Below are positions 41,114 through 43,105 of a stretch of DNA of 43,105 nucleotides, in pieces. The notes under the pieces were generated by a model that saw only the letters and a list, made by a program, of their open reading frames with translations, was not told the DNA's origin and ran no database searches. The position numbers and the translations under genes were made by a program. This DNA is from a bacterium. GTDB lineage: Bacteria; Cyanobacteriota; Vampirovibrionia; Gastranaerophilales; Gastranaerophilaceae. The stretch covers positions 1 through 43,105 of the forward strand of contig JAFVAR010000031.1 in assembly GCA_017480425.1 (NCBI GenBank). Direction: 5' to 3'. The number at the start of each line of letters is the position of its first letter. The stretch's first letter is position 1.

Positions 41114-41246
41114 AATAATAGAGCAGAGCATAAATACGTTTTTGCCTGTATTAGAAATGAGTTCTAATGCAGTGTTAGCCATGCTTTTCGGGGAGGGTAA
41201 CCCTAGAACATTCTTACAAAAAGGATTCGGAGGTAACATATGGTAA
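41106..41246 (+). CDS. 46-residue upstream ORF overlapping the flagellin start
   Basis: ATG at 41106, reading MSQIIEQSINTFLPVLEMSS and ending GGNIW with TAA at 41244-41246, 7 nt inside the flagellin coding region. Helical, slightly acidic and hydrophobic in the middle. AAGG lies about 11 nt upstream, a weak site. The flagellin SD (GGAGG, 41229-41233) lies within this ORF, so its translation could control access to that site. Whether the peptide is made is unknown. Confidence 0.4.
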   Translation: MSQIIEQSINTFLPVLEMSSNAVLAMLFGEGNPRTFLQKGFGGNIW

Positions 41247-43105
41247 GTATTAATACAAACCTCCAATCATTAATAGTGCAGAAAAACCTTACGAAATCAA
41301 CCAATGCTTTGGATAAGGCGATAGAGAGATTAACAACGGGTTATAAAATCAACCATGCATCAGATAACGCAGCGAACTATTCAATAACAAGGAATATGTC
41401 GTCGCAGTTGTCATCATACTTACAGGCGGAAGAGAATACAAGTATGGGTTTAGACCTAATACAGACGCAATCATCGACCTTGGATACAATCCAGAACCTT
41501 ACAACAAGACTGCGAGCGTTAGCAGAACAGGCTCACAACGGCACATACGGAGCGCAATCCTTACAGGCAATCAATCAGGAAGCGGGAGCAATAGTGGACG
41601 AGATTTGCCGTATTACGGGAAATACGGAATATAACGGAATTGACTTGATGGGCTCAACAATGCAGGATACATTTAAGGACTCATATGGTGAGACTATCGG
41701 ACTGGATGAGTATGAAGACATATCAATCAAATCAAACGGGCTAATTAATGAGGTAGAAGAATTTGTCGATCCAAATAATGGATTTGTACTAAAAATATCA
41801 AATGTAGATGAAAATATTAATCTTAATAGTGTTGGTGCAACATTTATTATTTCTTCGGCAGAAGATTTTAAAAAATTTTCATATATGATGAACAACGGTC
41901 ATTTATGTAATAATGATCATCACAAGTTTGTATTAACAAATGATATAGATTTATCAGAATATTCCGATGGTGAAGGTTTTGCACCTATAAACTTTAAAGG
42001 TACTTTTGACGGAAACGGTCACACTATATCAAATCTGTATATAAACAGACCCGATGAAGATAATGTTGGGTTGTTCCGTAGTGCAGTAAATGAAGGAGAG
42101 TCAGGTACGATAAAAAATTTACGGCTTGAAAACGTGAATATAACAGGGGATTCATATGTTGGTGCTGTATGTGATCGTAACGTTAAAATAGAGAATGTAG
42201 CTGTTACCGGAGAAGTCAAGGCAAACGGTGATTATGCCGGAATGATTGCTGGCGGTGACTGTTCTGAAATCACAAACTCATATTCAAAAGGCAAAGTCGA
42301 AGGAGCAAACAATATCGGAGGTCTGTCAGGTCAATGTAAAAGAATGGAAAATTGTTTTTCAACGGCGGATGTTATTGCAAGCGGAGATAACATAGGCGGA
42401 TTAACAGGTGTTTGTGACGTTAAAATTGAAAATTGTTATTCTGTAGGAAATGTCAAATCTGATGGCGATTGTGTAGGTGGTATATGCGGCTTACTTTCAA
42501 GGGGTAGCATTGGTAATGTTTATTCAACAGGCAACATATCCGGAGTTACAAATGTCGGTGGTTTAATAGGATGTAGTGATATTAGTATAAGGAATGCCAG
42601 TATAGAATATTCATATTTTTTAGGTGACGTTTCATCAACTCTTTCGGACGGAGTGGTTGGCTCTTTTGTAGGCTCATATTTAGGCGGAAAAACGGTGCGG
42701 ATAAATACTTGTATTTACAACGGGTCAAGCGCCGGAATTAATGCTGTAGGAATGGATGGTAATGTGAATATTAATGATTGTACGGATATTTCAGCATCAT
42801 ATAACCGAGTAATTCAAGTCGGTATAAGCGGTTCAGACGATTCGCAATTGTCATTTAATACATTCTTTTCAGGTTTGGATATAAAATATATAAGCGAGAT
42901 GGGAATGGAGTCATACGGTTCTTTAGAGCGTATTGATAGGTTTATGAATAAAGTTAATAATATGCAGACAAAACTTGGCGCAATCGAGAATCGCTTGATG
43001 AGCAATCTTGAAAGTATCAGCGTAAATATTGAGAATTTAACTTCTTCCCGTTCTACATTGCAGGACGCTGATGTTGCAAAAGAATCAAGTAATTTTATAA
43101 AATCA
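41240..43105 (+). CDS. Flagellin with GLUG-repeat insertion, 3' end missing
   Basis: 622 codons are in the window and roughly 25-35 C-terminal residues are missing. The N-terminal D0/D1 region (1-140) is classical flagellin: SINTNLQSLIVQKNLTKSTN, LTTGYKINHASDNAANYSIT, EYNGIDLMG. The C-terminal D1/D0 (about 545-622) is too: LGAIENRLMSNLESISVNIE, SRSTLQDADVAKESSNFI. Between them, about residues 215-525, is a run of GLUG-type repeats: FKGTFDGNGHTISNLYI, NIGGLSGQCKRMENCFST, NIGGLTGVCDVKIENCYSVG, CVGGICGLL, NVGGLIGCSD. Such repeats are best known from surface adhesins. GGAGG lies 6 nt before the ATG. The nearby fliS product is its likely chaperone. Confidence 0.92.
   Translation, partial: MVSINTNLQSLIVQKNLTKSTNALDKAIERLTTGYKINHASDNAANYSITRNMSSQLSSYLQAEENTSMGLDLIQTQSSTLDTIQNLTTRLRALAEQAHNGTYGAQSLQAINQEAGAIVDEICRITGNTEYNGIDLMGSTMQDTFKDSYGETIGLDEYEDISIKSNGLINEVEEFVDPNNGFVLKISNVDENINLNSVGATFIISSAEDFKKFSYMMNNGHLCNNDHHKFVLTNDIDLSEYSDGEGFAPINFKGTFDGNGHTISNLYINRPDEDNVGLFRSAVNEGESGTIKNLRLENVNITGDSYVGAVCDRNVKIENVAVTGEVKANGDYAGMIAGGDCSEITNSYSKGKVEGANNIGGLSGQCKRMENCFSTADVIASGDNIGGLTGVCDVKIENCYSVGNVKSDGDCVGGICGLLSRGSIGNVYSTGNISGVTNVGGLIGCSDISIRNASIEYSYFLGDVSSTLSDGVVGSFVGSYLGGKTVRINTCIYNGSSAGINAVGMDGNVNINDCTDISASYNRVIQVGISGSDDSQLSFNTFFSGLDIKYISEMGMESYGSLERIDRFMNKVNNMQTKLGAIENRLMSNLESISVNIENLTSSRSTLQDADVAKESSNFIKS

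Follow-up and report, generated by a model that had tools for sequence, protein, structure and literature searches.

The window analysed here is a whole contig, C24, of 43,105 bp, from a metagenome-assembled genome of 1.54 Mb in 52 contigs that is 70% complete. The last gene on this contig is a flagellin ORF with a GLUG-type insert, the features of which are given in Table 1. The other genes of the window are non-flagellar (dihydroxy-acid dehydratase, 5-FTHF cyclo-ligase, an aminotransferase, capsule synthesis and LicD proteins), and this neighbourhood gave no hint of function.

Table 1. Coordinates of the GLUG-flagellin gene and its features in the window
Feature	Position	Strand	Evidence or remark
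GLUG-flagellin ORF, 622 aa	41240..43105	+	in frame to contig end; last codons on another contig
N-terminal D0/D1 helices, Flagellin_N, residues 1-140	41240..41659	+	Pfam; AF2 helices; C42 DNA identity
Beta-helix insert, residues ~183-545, GLUG/IgA1-protease type, replaces outer domains	41786..42874	+	AF2; fold comparison; Glug and Peptidase_M26_N
Beta-helix preamble, residues 210-324, with DIDLS and FKGTFDGNGHTISNL	41867..42211	+	Peptidase_M26_N positions 140-250
Best single GLUG motif match, residues 411-434	42470..42541	+	Pfam
Start of C-terminal D1/D0 helix, Flagellin_C positions 2-59/86	42926..43105	+	Pfam; model helix 561-621
Ribosome-binding site GGAGG	41229..41233	+	direct reading
Interrupted G tract GGGGAGGG, context CATGCTTTTC-G(n), 42 bp before start codon	41190..41197	+	direct reading

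The Pfam search of the window protein matched Flagellin_N at residues 4-137 (3.8e-27) and Flagellin_C at residues 563-620 (5.5e-11), the final ~27 positions of the latter model being missing at the contig end; relatives have this C-terminal helix in full. The intact D0/D1 ends of the original prediction were therefore found on the N-terminal side, while the C-terminal side is cut. Glug scored 21.6 bits in three stretches, above its cut-off of 20.5, and Peptidase_M26_N scored 23.9 bits, below its cut-off of 27.7. The presence of both flagellin ends and Glug in one chain, with which the structure prediction agrees, confirmed that a flagellin with a GLUG insert is real. The insert, first put at about 300 residues, is present but larger. 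The FKGTFDGNGHTISNLYI preamble said to accompany the repeats sits within the span of the beta-helix, and its GNG columns are invariant or almost so in the family alignments A1 and A2. A frameshift or an assembly join inside the gene was ruled out by the open frame and by the recurrence of the same architecture inside contigs of other assemblies.

Contig C24 ends in this gene because the flagellin ends are common to at least three loci, so that the assembly breaks at a repeat. Contigs C5 and C20 start with the ~90 nt that close C24, and the frame stays open in both until a normal flagellin C-terminus is reached. The same 46 N-terminal codons stand at the ends of C4 and C46, and C42 starts inside the same type of gene. 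The gene on C42 is a second GLUG-flagellin, whose N-terminal DNA is ~99% identical to that of C24 over the first shared part and whose insert is different. It carries one in-frame TAG ahead of the last helix, and some copies of the family may therefore be non-functional. At the end of contig C4 (L009) the start-codon region of a flagellin is duplicated, a first ATG and a few codons being followed by ~100 bp with TTACAGGAGAGGGTAGGGGTGAGG-type sequence and then by an intact start.

The window's genome also encodes ordinary flagellins and FlhA-type export proteins. Two full-length and one or two partial genes of the FlhA/FHIPEP family were found (G000:C52:4901-6892, C19:37583-39559 and C46:26028-27074; L161 and L162), which suggests that there is more than one export apparatus or that FlhA has paralogues.

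Fold of the insert and its kinship to IgA1 proteases

Structure prediction had been proposed as a check of the fusion, and the AF2 model obtained with a 44-row alignment (mean pLDDT 81) placed helical flagellin ends around a beta-helix, with a pLDDT mostly of 80-97 in the insert and low values at residues 316-341. A model of the insert on its own, for which no alignment was supplied, reached a mean pLDDT of just 57 and was set aside. Comparison of the insert model with solved structures (VIA) gave 3n6z as the best match, with Z 27.8 over 268 residues at 3.3 A; this structure is a fragment of a putative IgA1 protease of Bacteroides ovatus. The M26 IgA1 proteases 7uvk, 6xja, 7uvl and 6xjb followed with Z 26-27, and 7jgj with Z 23, the matches to 3n6z and the M26 beta-helices aligning 265-286 residues. 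The D0/D1 ends matched filament flagellins with Z ~19. Three D1 residues, R90, L94 and E114, which correspond to the TLR5 contact site, are kept in the window protein and almost throughout the alignment. The A1 family profile matched 3n6z in the PDB at 2.3e-26, and phmmer with the insert alone against the PDB gave chance matches only.

The insert thus has its beta-helix fold in common with 3n6z and with the M26 IgA1 proteases of Streptococcus pneumoniae (6xja/6xjb) and Gemella haemolysans (7uvk/7uvl). The repeats had been linked to autotransporter-like adhesins and IgA-protease-related proteins; the second kinship held in sequence and in structure, whereas among solved structures the insert comes closest to the gating beta-helix of M26 enzymes and not to an autotransporter adhesin. 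No C-terminal autotransporter beta-barrel was matched by Pfam in the window protein up to E 10, and its C-terminus is that of a flagellin.

The similarity to Peptidase_M26_N, together with the 17 flagellins labelled 'Peptidase_M26' in PMC5595980, could be read as pointing to a proteolytic, IgA1-protease-like flagellin. We consider this exceedingly improbable, since the match is confined to the non-catalytic N-terminal beta-helix. In the IgA1 protease of S. pneumoniae, that beta-helix is a gating domain, and it is the middle and C-terminal domains that carry the catalytic residues (PMC7695701). These M26 domains were not found in the GLUG flagellins, which have flagellin ends in their place. 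The HExxH motif was present in 0 of 63 family members and was not seen on reading the window protein, which rules out a simple protease reading, and Pfam matched no Gluzincin/M9 metallopeptidase insert in the window protein.

Family spread and variation of ends and inserts

The survey of spread covered whole genomes of the Cyanobacteria/Melainabacteria phylum. The single window protein gave no match when used as query of the genome contigs; an alignment used as query matched relatives. A search for GLUG and the flagellin N and C domains in one chain, which had been suggested as a further check, showed that the architecture recurs inside contigs in dozens of assemblies. At least 80 relatives of the same architecture were found in gut genomes of Gastranaerophilales, mostly contig-internal, and the insert was matched in 42 of 65 genomes of the genus, many of the matches lying in frames of 520-820 codons. 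When the fetched loci were translated, flagellin N, insert and flagellin C were in one frame in most of them, and the proteins mostly ended in ...SIALQLL or similar. Full-length members include proteins of 586-606 aa on L057 and L045. Loci L050-L159 gave 90 frames with all three parts, some of which are the same gene from two collections. Flagellin_N and Flagellin_C were present in 44 of 44 aligned members, Glug in 34 and Peptidase_M26_N in 23 (E 0.01), with Glug scores of up to 8.5e-28 in the aligned members and 1e-58 in L195. The profile of 16 family proteins found full-length relatives in several further genera of the family, and a full-length relative also occurs in another family of the same order (L160). 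The named matches were mostly Candidatus Gastranaerophilales or Melainabacteria MAGs, with labels including horse faeces, roe deer rectum and yak colon. No plasmid record was matched by tblastn over 80% of the query length, the listed matches being GLUG-type proteins or flagellins.

Twelve near-complete genomes of the genus contained 6-12 Flagellin_N matches each, a count that takes in hook-associated relatives; some of these genomes had 4-5 insert-bearing flagellins and others none. On a tree of the flagellin ends, sampled by similarity to GLUG flagellins, the GLUG label needed 4 changes against a shuffled mean of 35, which is suggestive of a few stable subfamilies and not of scattered fusions. 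Protein length ranged from ~520 to 2,085 residues and repeat number was very variable across the family. Ribosome-binding sites of the GGAGG type preceded 32 of 57 family genes. Upstream consensus promoters for sigma-28, sigma-70 and sigma-54 were weak or absent, with sigma-28-like sequences at 4 of 57 genes against 0.75 expected.

Several larger proteins were met in these searches. The longest flagellin (L195:613-6867, minus strand; 2,085 aa) has both ends, Peptidase_M26_N and a very long GLUG region, and flagellins of 1,342-1,450 aa with N and C ends around long inserts were found as whole frames in L193, L197 and L201 and also in L194. DUF3060 was matched in L193 and L197 and weakly in L201, and RTX HemolysinCabind in L197. 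Upstream of L196 (809 aa, N-terminal part only) and of L197 there are tracts of 14 and 11 G, respectively. In another family of the same order, a frame of 951 aa (L200:360-3212, plus strand; G533) combines Flagellin_N with nine GLUG stretches and has no Flagellin_C match. Within the genus and family, GLUG was also matched in very long open frames, of 2,000-11,000 codons. Those of L029, L032, L034, L044, G126:C5, G172:C1 and G226:C15 measure about 3,600-11,000 codons, and scanning of the fetched parts of L029, L032, L034 and L044 found no flagellin ends. The giant frames presumably encode giant surface proteins, and they may have served as source or partner for the cassettes of the flagellins.

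Broken copies were also seen. The GLUG-flagellin at L125:4602-4663, apparently the same gene as L158, is frameshifted at a run of eight T in the preamble, either by slippage or by an assembly error. In L198 (G018:C8:70500-75500), two copies in a tandem array of ordinary flagellins are split into an N-terminal part of 95-97 aa and a C-terminal part of 203-215 aa, with intact copies alongside.

Ends and inserts behaved differently when copies were compared. The four GLUG-flagellins of BRZ_DT__bin26 are 97-100% identical in DNA over about the first 175 codons and about 91-100% identical over the last ~190; in between, identity is only 33-65% in most windows of 25 codons. The same pattern of a near-identical N-terminus and a different insert separates C24 from C42. 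Between two genomes, L081 and L084 share 97-100% identity in most of the N-terminal part, a figure that drops to 54-60% across much of the insert; the mean insert identity between genomes was 46%. In only 26 of 88 members did the closest partner in the ends coincide with the closest in the insert (Spearman correlation of end and insert, 0.22), and for L135, L139 and L142 the end scores were 0.92-0.96 while the inserts ranked 43rd to 71st. As judged from sequence comparison, this decoupling is most simply explained by cassette exchange or gene conversion; individual junctions are provisional, since the shared ends also break assemblies.

G tracts upstream of the flagellin genes

Upstream poly-G tracts are a mark of phase-variable genes. 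G/C runs of seven or more within 250 bp upstream were found for 20 of 87 GLUG flagellins. The corresponding counts were 1 of 38 for standard flagellins (Fisher p 0.004) and 6 of 358 for other ORFs (Fisher p 8e-11); at least one of these six other ORFs owes its run to the reverse-complement view of the CTTGTAGTCATGCTTTTCGGGG context of an adjoining GLUG-flagellin. When runs of six or more within 600 bp were counted, 33 of 85 GLUG flagellins had one, of length 6-15 and often after ATGCTTTTC or similar, and ~60% had none. The genome G051 (99% complete) contains exactly three tracts of nine or more G, at the loci C1:122645, C7:3922 and C10:32304, and each of the three precedes a GLUG-flagellin by no more than 170 bp; G047 has tracts at C8:3674 and C8:28022. 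In the six genomes with a complete set of matches there were 19 insert-bearing flagellins, and 10 of 56 such tracts were situated no further than 600 bp upstream of one of them, against an expectation of 0.06; two of the 19 genes encode other long-insert flagellins of the RTX/DUF3060 type.

Many tracts of nine or more G also lie away from insert-bearing flagellins, in G041 (20), G062 (more), G060, G002 and G047, a hint that contingency loci may be more widespread in Gastranaerophilales; some of them are at contig ends and may be artefacts. Interior tracts with conserved flanks are hard to put down to two-colour sequencing artefacts, but contig-end tracts are to be discounted. Tract lengths are the values of one assembly per genome, in which variation between cells is not visible.

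The tract of the window gene is interrupted, whereas relatives have pure runs of 6-15 G in the same or a similar context. No long uninterrupted homopolymer tract was found at the window gene, and the single G8 run of its genome lies elsewhere than at the flagellin gene. For these reasons, phase variation is proposed for the family and not for the window copy. The contingency genes of Campylobacter likewise carry long G runs as putative phase-variation switches (PMC6321876). In Campylobacter, phase variation is known in cultured pathogens, whereas the tracts described here precede flagellin genes of uncultured Gastranaerophilales and were read from sequence.

Known flagellins and interpretation of the family

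Eckhard et al. (2017) listed 61 domain types in flagellin hypervariable regions, and 'Peptidase_M26' appears in their Table 1, among domains presented as putative enzymes (PMC5595980). As in our family, Flagellin N and C ends surround an M26-annotated region in those sequences; the architecture is probably the same, because GLUG beta-helices score against Peptidase_M26_N, and that entry was probably the first sight of it. In the accessible part of the paper the entry is a label, given without organism, structure, family spread, cassette exchange or poly-G. Flagellinolysins (PMC5595980, PMC7643111) are M9-like metallopeptidase flagellins that likewise display on the filament a complete foreign domain in the hypervariable region; they keep HExxH and are active proteases, whereas the GLUG insert is a beta-helix without HExxH. 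The sheath or screw-like outer domains of EHEC H7, EPEC H6, Achromobacter and Sinorhizobium are also large, non-conserved domains on conserved D0/D1, and some are adhesins (PMC8931119). In the fold comparison our insert matched IgA1-protease beta-helices and not these outer domains, and the sheath or screw-like flagellins are not described in that paper as a multigene family preceded by poly-G. Outer domains of flagellins are known as adhesins, sheaths and immune modulators (PMC8931119), general flagellin diversity was treated by Hu and Reeves (2020), in whose text neither GLUG nor M26 was found (PMC7018530), and Melainabacteria flagella with predicted TLR5 recognition were noted in 2013 (PMC3787301). 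No relevant paper combining flagellin and GLUG was found in the open-access literature. Flagellins with inserted domains are thus known, but this beta-helix, its cassette-like variation and its association with poly-G appear to be undescribed in the searchable literature.

Three observations went beyond the original prediction of a polyvalent adhesin or protective coat: the genes form a multigene family, inserts appear to be exchanged on near-constant ends, and many members have upstream poly-G. Together they point to a variable surface module rather than a fixed adhesin. We regard it as fairly probable that the genes form a multigene, cassette-diversified, poly-G-switched family of filament surface modules built on structural flagellin. 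In such a family, D0/D1 would build the filament in the usual flagellin manner, and the beta-helix, which faces outward because of its place in the flagellin fold, would project from the filament surface. The proteins would be exported through the flagellar system, for which FlhA-type genes are present, and would be incorporated beside the flagellins of 280-400 aa. The ends would be kept similar while the beta-helix was diversified by cassette exchange or gene conversion, and many copies would be turned on and off by slipped-strand mispairing at the upstream poly-G, so that the filament surface varied from cell to cell.

Gut-bacterial flagella are prime targets of IgA and TLR5. We give about even chances to antigenic or binding variation on the Gastranaerophilales filament, in which near-constant D0/D1, interchangeable cassettes (GLUG, and other repeat types in the giant relatives of 1,300-1,450 aa) and poly-G switching would give cells differing coats. 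Ligand binding or antigenic variation is what we infer here; the selective reason may be changing ligands (mucus or food glycans, other cells), escape from secretory IgA or phages, or both.

A fixed polyvalent adhesin, with a beta-helix binding one host, plant-fibre or microbial glycan and with incidental variation, seems rather unlikely to us. GLUG does occur in the giant frames, presumably surface proteins, and other flagellin outer domains work as adhesins (PMC8931119), but differing inserts on near-identical ends in one genome are unexpected for one conserved ligand, and no conserved surface pocket was identified. The wide range of protein length and the variable repeat number are in turn a poor fit to a regular sheath, in which packed beta-helices would stiffen the filament or hide D1 from TLR5 and proteases and the sequence would be free to drift, and the very different inserts on near-identical ends suggest selection on the exposed part. 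We therefore consider such a mechanical or shielding role unlikely, even though outer-domain sheaths exist in enteric bacteria of viscous niches (PMC8931119), a beta-helix is rigid, and the retention in D1 of the residues corresponding to R90, L94 and E114 leaves something to hide. It is quite improbable that most insert-bearing flagellins are decaying copies or silent donor cassettes and that the filament consists of the 280-400 aa flagellins: the TAG in C42, the breaks in L125/L158 and L109 and the N-terminal fragments in L198 would fit, but in the great majority of copies the ends are conserved and the frame stays open for 520-820 codons, and more than half of those inspected have a GGAGG-type ribosome-binding site.

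If the reading as a switched, cassette-diversified family is true, these flagellins would offer a natural example, in a commensal lineage, of variation at the surface of the filament itself, by a route distinct from Hin inversion in Salmonella and from glycan switching in Campylobacter, and its predictions are testable in existing metagenome reads. The label 'Peptidase_M26' on a flagellin need not mean an enzyme.
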